Below, piece after piece: positions 28,690 to 33,602 of a DNA stretch of 33,860 nucleotides (the stretch's first letter is position 1; each line of letters starts with the position of its first letter). Location of the stretch: assembly GCA_017477465.1 (NCBI GenBank), contig JAFUVU010000057.1:1-33860 (forward strand), read 5' to 3'. Under the pieces are notes generated by a model that was given only the letters and a program-made list of their open reading frames with translations, was not told the origin of the DNA and did no database searches. The position numbers were made by a program, and so were the translations under genes. The DNA is from Bacteroidales bacterium (lineage in GTDB: Bacteria > Bacteroidota > Bacteroidia > Bacteroidales > UBA932).

Positions 28690-28721
28690 CAAAAATAATT
28701 AAATTTGTGACAAATTACAAG
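28690..28721 (-). promoter_or_regulatory. Promoter of the M16 gene
   Basis: On the minus strand CTTG (28718-28721) and TATTTTTG (28690-28697) are 20 bp apart; the -7 is a full match and the -33 is a 3/4 match. It lies over the leader of the divergent LysR-like gene. Confidence 0.6.
28700..28707 (+). promoter_or_regulatory. -7 box of the HTH protein promoter
   Basis: TAAATTTG fits TAnnTTTG. No well-spaced TTTG is upstream. It overlaps the opposing M16 promoter, so the two genes may compete, or the HTH protein could act on both. Confidence 0.45.
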
Positions 28722-28724
28722 AAT

Positions 28725-28979
28725 ATGCTGGAAGATAGCAAAATCCGTGCTTTTTTAACTGTTGTCGATGCGGGTTCCTTCACTGCGGCCGCAAAACGGC
28801 TGGGAATCACGCAACCGGCGGTAAGCGCCCAGATAGCTTCGCTGGAAGCCGCCGTGGGTTTTCCTCTTTTTAAACGGGTCCCATCACTTGCCCTTACCCC
28901 TTCCGGCGAGGTCTTTCTCGGCTATGCGCGCCGTATCCAACAAGCCTACGATTTAGCGAACAAGGCATTCGGCCAATAA
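28725..28979 (+). CDS. Short LysR-type HTH protein lacking the effector domain
   Basis: This 84-residue protein consists of the LysR winged helix-turn-helix only: LEDSKIRAFLTVVDAGSFTAAAKRLGITQPAVSAQIASLEAAVGFPLFKR, then LTPSGEVFLGYARRI and a short linker-helix start. LysR proteins are normally ~300 residues with a periplasmic-binding-like effector domain. Here the gene ends cleanly at TAA and a terminator begins 3 bp later, so this is not a frameshift with the remainder downstream. Stand-alone LysR-like HTH proteins do occur and would need ligand-independent control. It is divergent from the M16 gene, its likely target. A degraded full-length regulator is the alternative. Confidence 0.85.
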   Translation: MLEDSKIRAFLTVVDAGSFTAAAKRLGITQPAVSAQIASLEAAVGFPLFKRVPSLALTPSGEVFLGYARRIQQAYDLANKAFGQ

Positions 28980-28981
28980 AA

Positions 28982-29006
28982 AACGGCAGCCGGGAAGGCT
29001 GCCGTT
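28982..29006 (+). terminator. Terminator of the HTH protein gene
   Basis: AACGGCAGCC (28982-28991) pairs with GGCTGCCGTT (28997-29006) around GGGAA, with a T-rich run following. It begins 3 bp after the stop codon of the HTH gene. Confidence 0.85.
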
Positions 29007-29023: not shown

Positions 29024-29102
29024 AAAAATAGCCTGCTTCAACGCTCCAGTCGCTTCGCGACCCTATTCCGGGCAAATGTCGCTTATGAAGCAGGCTATTT
29101 TT
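29024..29102. repeat. Variable-stem/conserved-loop element, copy 1
   Basis: AAAAATAGCCTGCTTCA (29024-29040) is an exact inverted repeat of 29086-29102. The 45-nt interior carries GTCGCTTCGCGACCCT (29049-29064) and TCCGGGCAAATG (29067-29078), separated by 2 nt; GTCGC-TTC-GCGAC is a small hairpin. Both blocks recur identically at 32709-32737, while the outer arms there are different. It lies 8 bp past the nifJ stop and on the minus strand ends in T5, so it can also terminate nifJ. Confidence 0.85.
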
Positions 29103-29110
29103 GATGATAA

Positions 29111-32100
29111 CTATTTGCCAGCCAGGCGCTTGTAGGTGTTCAGGCGCACTTTGGCAAACTCTTCCGTCTTCTGGAGGAGCTCCTGGGCGCTGTCGGGGAA
29201 CATCTTGTACAGGGAGGCAAAACGAACCTCACCTTTCAGGAAGTCCTGGAACTTGCTCCAGTCGGGCTCTTTGCTGTCGAGGCTGAACGGGTTCTTGTCT
29301 GTGCCTTCAAGAGCGGGGTTGTAGCGATACAGGTGCCAGTAACCGCACTCTACGGCCAGTTTCTCTTCCTTCTGGCTCAGGCCCATGCCGGCTTTGAGGC
29401 CGTGGTTGATACAAGGGCTGTAAGCGATGATGAGGGACGGGCCGTCGTAAGCTTCGGCTTCCTTGATGGCGTTGAAGAACTGTACGGGAGATGCGCCCAT
29501 AGCAACCTGTGCAACATACACATAGCCGTAGCTGATGGCCATCATGCCCAGGTCTTTCTTGCGAATCTTCTTACCGGAAGCGGCAAATTTGGCGATTGCG
29601 CCGATCGGGGTTGCCTTGGAGCTCTGTCCGCCGGTGTTGGAGTAAACCTCGGTGTCAAGGACAAGGACGTTCACATTCTCGCCGCTGGCAAGGACGTGGT
29701 CCAGACCGCCGTAGCCGATATCGTAGGAGGCACCGTCGCCGCCGAAGATCCACTGACTGCGGGAAGGAATGAAGTGCTGGTACTCAACCAGTTTCTTGCA
29801 GGCTTCGCAGTCGCAGTCTTTTGCGAGAGGGACAATCTTGTCGGCTACTTCGCGGGTGGAGGCGGCATCCTGAGGAGCCTCGAGCCACTTGGCTGCAAGG
29901 GCTTTGATGTCCTGGGAGCAGCACTCGCACTCAAGGGCTTTGCGCATTGCGCCGGCAACGGTTTCACGTGCACGGTCGGAACCTAACTTCATGCCGAGGC
30001 CGAATTCGCAGAAGTCCTCGAACAGGGAGTTGGCCCATGCGGGACCGTGACCTGCGGCATTTGTGCAGTACGGGCTGGCAGGGAAGGATGCGCCGTAGAT
30101 GGAGGAGCAACCGGTAGCGTTGGCAATCATCATGTGGTCGCCGAAGAGCTGGGTGATGGTCTTGATGTTAGGAGTTTCACCGCAACCTGCGCAGGCGCCG
30201 GAGAACTCGAACAGAGGCTGGGCGAACTGGCTGTTCTTCATGTTGGCCTTCTTGTCAACATACTCCTTGTAGCCCACTTTCTTGTTCAGGTAGTCGAATG
30301 CTGCCTGGTCTTCCTTGTCGTTGATGTAAGGAACCATGCTGAGGGCTTTGTCCTTTGCAAGGCAGACATCTACGCAGTTGCCGCAGCCGGTGCAGTCGTC
30401 AACTGAGATGGCGATGGCGTACTTGTATTCCTTGAGGTTGGCCTTGCCCTGGGCAAGTTTCACATTTGCAGGAACCTTGGCGGCCTCTTCTTCGGTGAGG
30501 AGGAAAGGACGGATGGCGGCGTGAGGGCAGACGAATGCGCAGGTGTTGCACTGGATACATTTTTCTGCATCCCAGGTGGGAACGTTCACGGCCACTCCGC
30601 GCTTCTCGAATGCTGCGGTGCCGGCGGGCATGGTACCATCGGCATAAGGCATGAAGGCGCTTACGGGGAGGGTGTCGCCGGCCTGGGCGTTCACGATGTC
30701 GGCAATGTCTTTGACGAAGGCAGGGGCCAGACGGTCCTTGTTCGGATTTTCGAACTTGGCAGTGAGGTTTGCCCATTCTGCGGGGACGTGGAGCTCTGTG
30801 TACTCGCCGCCGCGGTCAACGGCTGCGTAGTTCATGTTCACTACGTTTTCGCCCTTCTTGCCGTAGGACTTGACGATTGCGTCCTTCATGTATTTTACTG
30901 CATCCTCGTAGGGGATGATGCCGGTAATCTTGAAGAAGGCGCTCTGGAGAATGGTGTTGGTACGGTTTCCAAGGCCGATTTCAGCGGCAATCTTGGTAGC
31001 GTTGATGATGAACACGCGGATGTGCTTGCGGCCGATGATGGCTTTCACATTGTCCGGGATGTTCTTGATGGTCTCTTCTTCGTCCCAGAGGCTGTTCAGG
31101 AGGAGGGTGCCGCCTTCCTTGATGCCCTTGAGCACATCGTATTTCTTAAGGTATGAAGGGACGTGGCAGGCTACGAAGTCGGGGGTGTTCACCAGATAGG
31201 GAGCCTTGATGGGCTGCTGGCCGAAGCGCAGGTGAGAGCAGGTGTAACCGCCGGATTTCTTGGAGTCGTAGTCAAAGTAGGCCTGGCTGTAAAGGTCTGT
31301 GTGTGAGCCGATAATCTTGATGGTGTTCTTGTTGGCACCTACGGTACCGTCGGACCCCAGGCCATAGAACTTGCATTCGGTGGTGCCGGGCTTCACGATG
31401 GAAACTTCGCTCTTGATAGGGAGGCTCTTGAAGGTGACATCGTCCACAATGCCGATGGTGAAGTCGGCCTTGGGCTCCTTGGCGTCCAGGTTGTCAAAGA
31501 CGGAAACAATCTGGGCGGGTGTGGTGTCCTTGGAGGACAGGCCATAACGGCCGCCGATGATAAGGACGTTGTCGCGGCCCTGGAAGAGGGCTTTCACGTC
31601 GGTGAAAAGGGGTTCGCCCACGGCGCCGGGTTCCTTGGTGCGGTCCAGCACCGCAATGCGGCGGACGCTCTTGGGGAGCACGGAGAAGAAGTATTTCTCT
31701 GAGAAGGGACGATACAGGTGCACGGTTACCAGACCGTACTTCCGGCCGCGGCCGGCGAGGTAGTCGATGGTTTCCTTGATGGTTTCGGTGACACTGCCCA
31801 TGGCCACGATGATGTTCTCGGCGGTGGGGTCACCGTAATACTCGAAGGGACGGTAGCTGCGGCCGGTGAGCTCGGAGATTTCACCCATGTAGCGGGCTAC
31901 AATGTCCGGAACGGCTTCGTAGGCCTGGTTGCGGGTTTCCACGGCCTGGAAATAGACATCCCCGTTCTGGGCGGTACCGCGGGTAACAGGGGCGTCCGGG
32001 TTCAGGGCACGCTCGCGGAAACGGGCAAGGGCTTTCTCGGAAACCATGGCCTTGAGCTCTTCCTCGGGCAGGGCCTCAATCTTCTGGATTTCGTGGGAGG

Positions 32101-32632
32101 TGCGGAAACCGTCAAAGAAATGCAGGAACGGAATGCTGCTCTTGATGGTGGACAGATGGGCCACGGCGGCAATGTCCTGGGCTTCCTGTACGGAACCGGA
32201 GGCAATCATGGCAAAACCGGTCTGGCGGCAGGCCATCACATCCTGGTGGTCACCGAAGATGGAAAGGGCGTGGGATGCCAGGGCACGGGCGCTCACGTGG
32301 AACACGGTGGGAAGCATCTCGCCGGCAATCTTGTACATGTTGGGAATCATCAGCAGAAGTCCCTGGGAAGCGGTGAAGGTAGAAGTGAGGGCACCGGCCT
32401 GGAGGGAACCGTGCACAGCACCGGCAGCACCGGCTTCGCTCTGCATCTCCGTCACTTTCACGGTCTCGCCCCAGAGGTTCTTTTTGCCATGGGCGGCCCA
32501 CTCGTCGATGTTCTCGGCCATAGTGGAAGACGGCGTGATAGGATAGATGGCGGCATGCTCGCAGAACAGGTAAGCAATGTTGCTGGCGGCATAGTTACCA
32601 TCACAGGTGATGAATTTCTTTTCTTTTGCCAT
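29111..32632 (-). CDS. nifJ: Pyruvate:ferredoxin (flavodoxin) oxidoreductase
   Basis: This 1173-residue single-chain enzyme converts pyruvate and CoA to acetyl-CoA and CO2, reducing ferredoxin. The order is standard: domain I (CDGNYAASNIAYLFCEHAAIYPITPSS), the CoA and gamma-domain region, two [4Fe-4S] clusters (CIQCNTCAFVCP near residue 691; CTGCGNCVDVC near 752), then CAGCGE near 814 and the thiamine-diphosphate fold with GDGASYDIGYGGLDHVL (near 966) and VYSNTGGQSSKATP. The length matches the homodimeric NifJ type. ATG 32632 begins MAKEKKFITCDGNYAASN. It lies 25 bp behind fabD on the same strand. The short ferredoxin at 25543 is a likely electron acceptor. Confidence 0.97.
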   Translation of the reverse strand: MAKEKKFITCDGNYAASNIAYLFCEHAAIYPITPSSTMAENIDEWAAHGKKNLWGETVKVTEMQSEAGAAGAVHGSLQAGALTSTFTASQGLLLMIPNMYKIAGEMLPTVFHVSARALASHALSIFGDHQDVMACRQTGFAMIASGSVQEAQDIAAVAHLSTIKSSIPFLHFFDGFRTSHEIQKIEALPEEELKAMVSEKALARFRERALNPDAPVTRGTAQNGDVYFQAVETRNQAYEAVPDIVARYMGEISELTGRSYRPFEYYGDPTAENIIVAMGSVTETIKETIDYLAGRGRKYGLVTVHLYRPFSEKYFFSVLPKSVRRIAVLDRTKEPGAVGEPLFTDVKALFQGRDNVLIIGGRYGLSSKDTTPAQIVSVFDNLDAKEPKADFTIGIVDDVTFKSLPIKSEVSIVKPGTTECKFYGLGSDGTVGANKNTIKIIGSHTDLYSQAYFDYDSKKSGGYTCSHLRFGQQPIKAPYLVNTPDFVACHVPSYLKKYDVLKGIKEGGTLLLNSLWDEEETIKNIPDNVKAIIGRKHIRVFIINATKIAAEIGLGNRTNTILQSAFFKITGIIPYEDAVKYMKDAIVKSYGKKGENVVNMNYAAVDRGGEYTELHVPAEWANLTAKFENPNKDRLAPAFVKDIADIVNAQAGDTLPVSAFMPYADGTMPAGTAAFEKRGVAVNVPTWDAEKCIQCNTCAFVCPHAAIRPFLLTEEEAAKVPANVKLAQGKANLKEYKYAIAISVDDCTGCGNCVDVCLAKDKALSMVPYINDKEDQAAFDYLNKKVGYKEYVDKKANMKNSQFAQPLFEFSGACAGCGETPNIKTITQLFGDHMMIANATGCSSIYGASFPASPYCTNAAGHGPAWANSLFEDFCEFGLGMKLGSDRARETVAGAMRKALECECCSQDIKALAAKWLEAPQDAASTREVADKIVPLAKDCDCEACKKLVEYQHFIPSRSQWIFGGDGASYDIGYGGLDHVLASGENVNVLVLDTEVYSNTGGQSSKATPIGAIAKFAASGKKIRKKDLGMMAISYGYVYVAQVAMGASPVQFFNAIKEAEAYDGPSLIIAYSPCINHGLKAGMGLSQKEEKLAVECGYWHLYRYNPALEGTDKNPFSLDSKEPDWSKFQDFLKGEVRFASLYKMFPDSAQELLQKTEEFAKVRLNTYKRLAGK

Positions 32633-32657
32633 AATTAGTTAGAGTTTATGTAATTAG

Positions 32658-33602
32658 TTATTGTATTCCTTCGATGATCACGGCGGAAGGGGATACCCTT
32701 TCCTCCGCGTCGCTTCGCGACCCTGTCCGGGCAAATGCTCCGGAAAGGGGATCCCCTTCCGCCGCGACGATGCGGGAAACAAGGCCTTGTAAGACTGTTC
32801 CGGGGCCCAGTTCTACAAAGCGGGTGGCACCGTCGGCGAGCATCCTTTGCACGGTGGCGGTCCAGCGCACCGGGCTGGTGAGCTGTGCAAGGAGGTTGGC
32901 CTTGATAAGCTTAGGGTCTGTTTCCGGGAGGGCGCTTACGTTCTGGTAGACAGGGCAGCGGGGCGCCTGGAAGGGCGTGGCCTCGATGGCCTGGGCCAGT
33001 TCTACGCGGGCCGGCTCCATGAGCGGGGAGTGGAAGGCGCCGCTTACAGGCAGCTTGAGGGCGCGCTTGGCGCCGGCGGCCTTCAGGGCCTCGCAGGCTT
33101 TGTCCACTGCGGCTTCTTCGCCGGAGATGACCACCTGGCCGGGAGAATTGTAGTTGGCGGGCACTACGCCGGGGATATCGGCACAGATGCGCTCAATGGT
33201 TTCATCGTCCAGCTTGAGGACGGCGGCCATGGTGCCGGGCACAGCCTCGCAGCATTTCTGCATAGCGCCGGCACGGAGCGCCACCAGGCGCAGACCGTCC
33301 TCGAAGCTCATGGCGCCCGCGGCTACCAGGGCGGAGAATTCTCCCAGGGAATGTCCGGCCACCATGTCCGGCTGCATGGACTGGCCAAGGGCCAGGACCA
33401 CGCTGTGCAGGAAAATGGCGGGTTGGGTAACCCGGGTGGCTTTGAGGTCATCGGCACTGCCATCGAACATGATATCCGTGAGGCGGAAGCCCAGGATGTC
33501 GTTGGCGCTTTCCATGAGGTCTTTGTGGGTGGGATACAGTTCCCGGCCCATTCCGGGATATTGGGACCCCTGTCCGGGGAAGATATAAGCGGTTTTGGTC
33601 AT
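32658..33602 (-). CDS. fabD: Malonyl-CoA:ACP transacylase with palindromic element in its C-terminus
   Basis: The 314-residue protein carries GQGSQYPGMG (10-19), the nucleophile motif GHSLGE with Ser85, Arg110, His191 in AFHSPLM and the ELGPGTVLQGL block, so the malonyl transfer site is complete. It loads malonate onto acyl-carrier protein for fatty-acid synthesis. Residues ~280-307 (AEGDPLSGAFARTGSRSDAE and the following ~7) are encoded by the palindromic element at 32681-32764, read in frame without a stop; the protein then ends AVIIEGIQ. This stretch lies beyond the folded core and looks like an added tail. It begins the fabD-nifJ pair. A -7 box lies at 33621-33628. Confidence 0.95.
   Translation of the reverse strand: MTKTAYIFPGQGSQYPGMGRELYPTHKDLMESANDILGFRLTDIMFDGSADDLKATRVTQPAIFLHSVVLALGQSMQPDMVAGHSLGEFSALVAAGAMSFEDGLRLVALRAGAMQKCCEAVPGTMAAVLKLDDETIERICADIPGVVPANYNSPGQVVISGEEAAVDKACEALKAAGAKRALKLPVSGAFHSPLMEPARVELAQAIEATPFQAPRCPVYQNVSALPETDPKLIKANLLAQLTSPVRWTATVQRMLADGATRFVELGPGTVLQGLVSRIVAAEGDPLSGAFARTGSRSDAEERVSPSAVIIEGIQ
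32681..32764. repeat. Variable-stem/conserved-loop element, copy 2 (inside fabD)
   Basis: Arms 32681-32703 and 32742-32764 are 23-bp inverted repeats with one mismatch (outer part CGGCGGAAGGGGAT). The 38-nt interior holds GTCGCTTCGCGACCCT (32709-32724) and TCCGGGCAAATG (32726-32737), identical to copy 1 except for one fewer base between the blocks. The arms are unrelated to those of copy 1. On the minus strand it is translated as part of FabD. Confidence 0.88.

Follow-up and report, generated by a model that had tools for sequence, protein, structure and literature searches.

Palindromic elements that lie in frame within conserved protein-coding genes, and also between genes, are known from Rickettsia (Rickettsia palindromic elements, RPEs) and Wolbachia (Wolbachia palindromic elements, WPEs), where related species share insertion sites (PMC2229807, PMC3767692). 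Sites in Rickettsia hold different palindrome groups in different species (PMC3767692), and the repeats of an RPE reportedly become less alike over time (PMC6649704). Among shorter palindromes, the CGTC class of repetitive extragenic palindromic (REP) sequences, with 8–9 bp stems, 4–5 nt loops and an end tag, has been reported from Bacteroidetes among other phyla (PMC3733652). Inverted repeats are also reworked where they stand, template switching having been found to homogenize arms and invert spacers in yeast coding DNA (PMC8604942), and perfect inverted repeats are kept in coding genes of Nematomorpha mitochondria (PMC6649704). Here we describe two palindromes in a 33,860-nt stretch of DNA from a Bacteroidales bacterium (hereafter the window; contig JAFUVU010000057.1 of assembly GCA_017477465.1, GTDB lineage UBA932). 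We conclude that they probably belong to a family of protein-coding palindromic elements that has spread in one Bacteroidales genus, mostly in frame inside conserved genes.

The family resembles RPEs and WPEs in that its palindromes lie in frame in conserved genes as well as between genes, the same sites are occupied in related species, and some sites hold different palindrome groups in different species. It differs from RPEs in length (about 80–90 nt against 105–146 bp), in host (Bacteroidales against Rickettsia and Wolbachia), in its near-invariant core, which occurs in either orientation at the same arm phase and is homogenized within each genome, and in its arms, free in sequence yet paired. 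Because size and host differ, we do not file the family as RPE, a separation drawn from published RPE descriptions. Like CGTC REPs and GTAG REPs, the latter accompanied by RAYT transposases, it consists of short palindromic repeats, some inside genes, but stems of ~20 bp and a loop of ~38 nt depart from the short stem, small loop and end tag of REPs, and no linked Y1 transposase, the one transposase family searched, was found in 200 genomes of the genus. Unlike miniature inverted-repeat transposable elements (MITEs), the family has no conserved terminal inverted repeats, its arms differing between copies. Arm homogenization and spacer inversion at fixed sites recall template switching at inverted repeats, although the spacers in yeast are small, with 2–5 changed bases (PMC8604942), whereas a 38-nt core flips here; the Nematomorpha palindromes, by contrast, are mitochondrial, and the available part of that report describes no shared core of a dispersed element (PMC6649704). 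A first-pass annotation, made from the window alone, knew of no named family with this layout, and open-licence PMC papers likewise yielded no description of this Bacteroidales family, although its lifestyle is that of the Rickettsia elements.

Both palindromes (copies 1 and 2, Table 1) were confirmed by repeat pairing and core positions, as was their near-identical interior, which reads GTCGCTTCGCGACCCT, then AT or G, then TCCGGGCAAATG, and lies at 32709–32737 in copy 2. The left arm of copy 1 (29024–29040, AAAAATAGCCTGCTTCA) pairs perfectly with 29086–29102, and the arms of copy 2 (32681–32703 with 32742–32764) can be extended to 26 nt at 92% (32678–32703/32742–32767), the arm lengths standing as first given. 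The claim that the arms share no sequence holds between these two copies, whereas across copies a weak family arm consensus remains. The location of copy 2 inside the fabD reading frame had not been mentioned.

A search of the 2.42-Mb source genome for the core blocks, as the first-pass annotation had proposed, returned six exact matches and 11 with a looser core; a reversed control pattern returned none for either. The 11 copies divide into type A (eight, including copy 1), with A/T-tipped arms of consensus CYGCTTCA/TGAAGCRG, and the in-gene type B (three, including copy 2), with longer arms of other sequence and a weak consensus of roughly GGAAGGGGATACCCTTTCC. All three type B copies are in frame, in fabD, a dihydropteroate synthase gene and an M20 peptidase gene, and encode the peptide GAFARTGS(R/Q)SDAEE. 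Set against open reading frames (ORFs) of at least 90 aa, three type A copies are clear (L010, L016 and L013, the window copy), three are touched at one end only, by up to ~22 nt (L009, L011, L015), and two overlap an ORF further (L008 near the ORF start; L017 with a short antisense ORF); several adjoin a stop codon. Copy 1 is an intergenic relative of the in-gene family. The M20 peptidase gene (L007:570–1793) also carries an apparent second, different insert around ITSGGTPFASLSPAPPTGLQPAGPSPYPCAGVHMSSEGDILRK.

The element measures about 80–90 nt, with two ~20-bp arms around a 38-nt core. A covariance model built from 18 copies (three obtained through the core pattern in the source genome, the others through a FabD search) had matches at E 0.001 in 56 of the 200 genus genomes, the source genome alone giving 13; searched genomes were one per species. 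Among 295 genomes of the order (E 1e-5, strict filters), the model matched the source genome only, and among 99 genomes of the family, including six other genus members, the exact core pattern was likewise confined to it. In GTDB contigs, the core pattern occurs in at least 114 stretches; all 80 of those listed are named Bacteroidales or Bacteroidia, and ruminant sample names are frequent among the 80. Viral contigs gave no exact-pattern match, on which ground a phage origin was rejected. Of 100 forward matches inspected, the majority have long paired arms and some are decayed (L007, L117, L127). A further core variant (RPFARIGSRSDR / SLSLRDPIRANG) is present within and between genes in L097, L174, L188, L234 and others.

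We compared reading frames and sites in 158 copies gathered from fetched loci, mostly best-scoring model matches, with copies <30 nt from a locus end and duplicate sequences excluded. With frame class set by codon score on both flanks, 95 copies have one coding, open frame through both flanks, and two mirror-image frames are used in 92 of these, 55 with the core antisense (SASLRDPVRANAPE) and 37 with it sense (GAFARTGSRSDAEE). The subset obtained by core-pattern scan, which involved no gene-based choice, behaves in the same way (26 of 54 clean, 25 of the 26 in the two frames). Across 127 copies, the residues C, W, Y, F, H, I, M, L and V have shares of 0.13 and 0.16 in the used frames against 0.26–0.33 in the other four, and stops run at 3% against 7–16%, stops in the used frames being themselves selected against. 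Given fewer such residues and fewer stops, peptide-level selection is a sufficient reason for the choice of frame.

In-frame hosts include fabD, cysS, metG, polA, uvrA, ligA, dnaX, atpB, atpG, murE, tyrA and more, and 26 of 30 scanned host proteins match known families (10/10, 7/10 and 9/10 in three batches). Prephenate dehydrogenase, DNA polymerase III gamma/tau, ATP synthase a and gamma, CysRS, MetRS, DNA polymerase I, UvrA, LigA, IF-2, Fmt, MurE and RsmH were identified above NCBIfam cut-offs; L139 (YfmH-like) and L082 (beta-ketoacyl synthase) matched below cut-offs. By Pfam, L076 is a class I tRNA synthetase, which we take to be IleRS (our own naming). Family profiles span the insert in cysS, polA, uvrA, metG, atpG, dnaX and murE. 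Of 68 target clusters, 35 hold at least two copies, with most copies at or near the same site; the clusters allow up to three ORFs per copy, antisense included, and some joins may be wrong. A FabD search of 61 genus genomes matched 50, and in most FabD proteins the alignment stops at about residue 279–288; those of element-free relatives end, for example, in ...GLVKRIAGDLEMTIEGIQ. The FabD of G117 also carries the element, and the inserted peptide appears at other places in five genus genomes (G103, G117, G126, G135, G142) and elsewhere in the source genome. In fabD of G587 (L246:835–1000), two tandem element copies, one degenerate, stand in frame, and an element-free relative of the L139 peptidase (L350, G276) has an apparent frameshift near an A run, an assembly error or a broken gene.

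Relatives lacking the element reveal the size and content of the insertion. The net insert is roughly 19–26 residues relative to element-free FabD and TyrA, and ~57–92 nt over the sites compared. When five insertions were set against relatives, the empty sites at L134, L120, L224 and, less clearly, L101, a site with longer linkers in some relatives, proved to lack the arms. At L146, native sequence of G117 matches one arm exactly over 8 nt and remains similar beyond them. Absence at four of the five suggests that the arms arrived with the element. With the family's dispersal, these empty sites back the first-pass proposal of a mobile palindromic element. Junctions are blurred, and the five comparisons gave no clear target-site duplication. 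Shortened states lack 51 nt (an alpha-2-macroglobulin-like gene), 57 nt (a tRNA synthetase gene) or 54 nt (a relative of L059, from hit coordinates only), each a multiple of three with the frame retained; the alpha-2-macroglobulin-like gene and the G280 tRNA synthetase site were dropped as empty sites, being better read as probable in-frame deletions. Different palindromic repeats occupy the same loop of tyrA in relatives (L304 in G221, L305 in G173, L306 in G154) and the tRNA synthetase site (L355, L359, L362); some of these are CGTC-like on our own reading of the sequence (GATGCCCGGTCAAGCCGGGCATGACG), and one is GAGATTTCTCGACTTCGCTCGAAATGACA-like.

Arms vary as pairs. In the 18 model copies, 97.6% of cells are paired and 17 of 18 arm pairs have changed on both sides, a count reached in none of 500 shuffles, with every slid control far lower. 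Only 8 of ~315 paired arm cells are G-U, rarer than expected of an RNA helix, and pairing is therefore probably kept at the DNA level. The inner hairpin GTCGC-GAA-GCGAC also varies in paired fashion (GTTGC..GCAAC). Over 181 same-site pairs, which include one tandem pair from a single genome and from which pairs with an ORF <150 aa or with <60 aligned flank bases were excluded, arm positions comprised 838 compensated, 430 one-sided and 133 other changes; at flank identity <0.9, compensated changes outnumbered one-sided ones by 813 to 394. The covariance analysis, also proposed in advance, and the same-site comparisons bear out a conserved centre within freely varying self-complementary arms, many copies pairing with themselves through different sequences.

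The core is flipped in 79 of the 181 same-site pairs, in some cases between near-identical arms (18/18 positions in L054/L233, 17 in L066/L077, 16 in L107/L138), and alignment gives L107/L138 as a clean in-place flip. Core sequence follows the genome, and arms follow the site. Among the 102 of 158 copies with known genome and at most eight core mismatches, with labels assigned by hand, cores differ at 1.80 of 38 positions within a genome (394 pairs), 3.11 at the same site in other genomes (113 pairs) and 3.15 otherwise (4643 pairs); the corresponding arm differences, of 18 positions, are 8.43, 6.27 and 8.74. The within-genome core effect was never reached in 1000 label permutations. In G117, a nested insert of ~39 nt lies in the cores of L105 (tRNA synthetase) and L106 (a second gene), and a 21-nt piece of it (≤2 mismatches) has two occurrences in the 200 genomes, both in G117. 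Between the two copies, 5 of 77 core positions are different, as are 14 of 26 in the left arms and 15 of 26 in the right, and the arms of each copy are paired 20/20. Because both sites are also filled in other species, the most parsimonious interpretation is that the core passed between sites already present, although a composite may instead have transposed with new arms.

Genome comparison demonstrates dispersal, in-frame position, two mirror frames, covarying arms, core inversion, core homogenization, empty sites and frame-keeping shortened states. We propose that the element is tolerated because the frame used codes for a small-residue peptide. During replication, template switching between arms would copy one arm onto the other, turn mutations into paired changes and flip the core; it would account jointly for arm matching and flipping, and the observed pattern fits such a process. 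Either gene conversion or this hairpin-driven switching may copy cores between element sites of one genome, with arms staying at their site. A stronger version, which we advance only tentatively, would make the core a transposase-free cassette: hairpin-driven template switching would copy it, in either orientation, from one palindrome of a genome to another, and each site would keep and re-perfect its own arms.

Several observations weigh against a family of in-frame coding elements reshaped in this way. In 63 of the 158 copies, the frames of the two flanks differ (32), one flank alone is coding (26) or neither is (5); many of these occur close to the end of a gene or within ORFs that other species share, some ten appear intergenic, and L116 is in another frame. 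Three of the 95 clean copies use another frame, and the codon score behind these classes was trained on phase-0 ORFs of these very copies. Four of the 30 host proteins gave no family match (L089, L219 and L235 in NCBIfam; L112 in Pfam). The structure counted for covariation was set on the same 18 sequences, same-site pairs overlap and are not independent events, and high-scoring copies favour well-paired arms. At flank identity ≥0.9, one-sided changes outnumber compensated ones (36 to 25), a dependence on identity that fits mutation first and copying onto the other arm later. Core homogenization may stem from loss and re-insertion at favoured sites, since the tyrA and class I tRNA synthetase sites hold other repeats, and the named records are mostly metagenome assemblies.

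The first-pass annotation also suggested that the arms form at the target, insertion of a core creating an inverted copy of neighbouring host sequence. The partly native arm at L146 speaks for this, and at dnaX, G280 and G221, which lack the element, have the left arm of G276. The dnaX case was nevertheless withdrawn as proof and is ambiguous: the more distant relative L262 (0.84 flank identity) has an element at this site, and a GCTCCCG repeat permits slippage deletion, so the G280 and G221 sites may be losses. With arms missing from the empty sites at L134, L120, L224 and, less clearly, L101, we regard target-made arms as unlikely. A dispersed palindrome with empty sites would also result if the element were a classical MITE or REP whose transposase recognized either the arms, as terminal repeats, or a hairpin tag (RAYT/IS200-like), and RAYTs are believed to mobilize the GTAG REPs of other bacteria (PMC3733652). 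The arms, however, which a transposase would need for binding, are the least conserved part; target-site duplications were not clear and viral contigs lacked the exact pattern; and Y1 transposases (PF01797, E 1e-10) occur in 11 of the 200 genus genomes, with none in the source genome and G241 the only carrier among the 56 element bearers. Transposase-driven movement consequently seems to us quite improbable.

Strong arm covariation, the A/T-tipped type A arms and the copies adjoining gene ends would suit a functional structured RNA or regulatory hairpin selected for mRNA stability, termination or translation pausing, another first-pass suggestion. In-gene copies nonetheless stand in unrelated genes in both orientations (37 sense, 55 antisense), G-U pairs are few, and FabD orthologues mostly lack the element. 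Rfam gave no match in the window at gathering score and, over eight loci, a single chance-level hit that scored 32 bits where the gathering score is 100, leaving a structured RNA with little probability. A recombination or attachment site had been suggested too; as such it found no support, although the core does invert in place. A dedicated recombinase flipping the core would explain the 79 same-site pairs in opposite orientation and the clean flip in L107/L138, yet it would need to act in arms that vary between sites, whereas template switching covers both flipping and arm matching; we judge it the least probable of the readings considered. Taken as a whole, the first-pass interpretation is partly supported.

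Within the window, copy 1 starts directly beyond the stop codon of the pyruvate:ferredoxin oxidoreductase gene, between that codon and the end of a short LysR-like ORF. This ORF (28719–28976) has ~86 codons only, with the helix-turn-helix part present, and the gene is possibly truncated. Upstream of fabD lies a 24-nt inverted repeat (33619–33642/33785–33808, 79% complementary, 142 nt spacing). No tRNA or tmRNA was detected in the window, and hence no link of the element to either.

Table 1. Palindromes and neighbouring features of the window.
Feature	Coordinates	Strand	Remarks
Terminator-like hairpin	28982..29006	.	Ordinary, both strands; distinct from copy 1
Copy 1 (type A), intergenic palindrome	29024..29102	+	17-bp A/T-tipped arms; core 29049-29078
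Pyruvate:ferredoxin oxidoreductase gene	29111..32632	-	TIGR02176, 1173 aa; between copies 1 and 2
fabD, 314 aa	32658..33602	-	Acyl transferase domain PF00698; element lengthens C-terminus
Copy 2 (type B), palindrome within fabD	32681..32764	-	23-bp arms, one mismatch
Conserved 38-nt core GGAGCATTTGCCCGGACAGGGTCGCGAAGCGACGCGGA (minus strand)	32704..32741	-	Read within SGAFARTGSRSDAEE in fabD frame

To our knowledge, the route by which Rickettsia-type coding palindromes spread is still an open question. In this Bacteroidales genus, many related species share housekeeping-gene sites at which empty, filled, flipped, nested and shortened states stand side by side, so that arm matching, core flipping, core exchange and loss become measurable by comparison, offering a tractable case for selfish DNA inside genes. 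Annotators should be aware that the ~25-residue inserts such proteins carry in these bacteria may be repeat-derived. If the core is indeed a transposase-free cassette, the family would represent selfish DNA in genes carried by the replication machinery alone.

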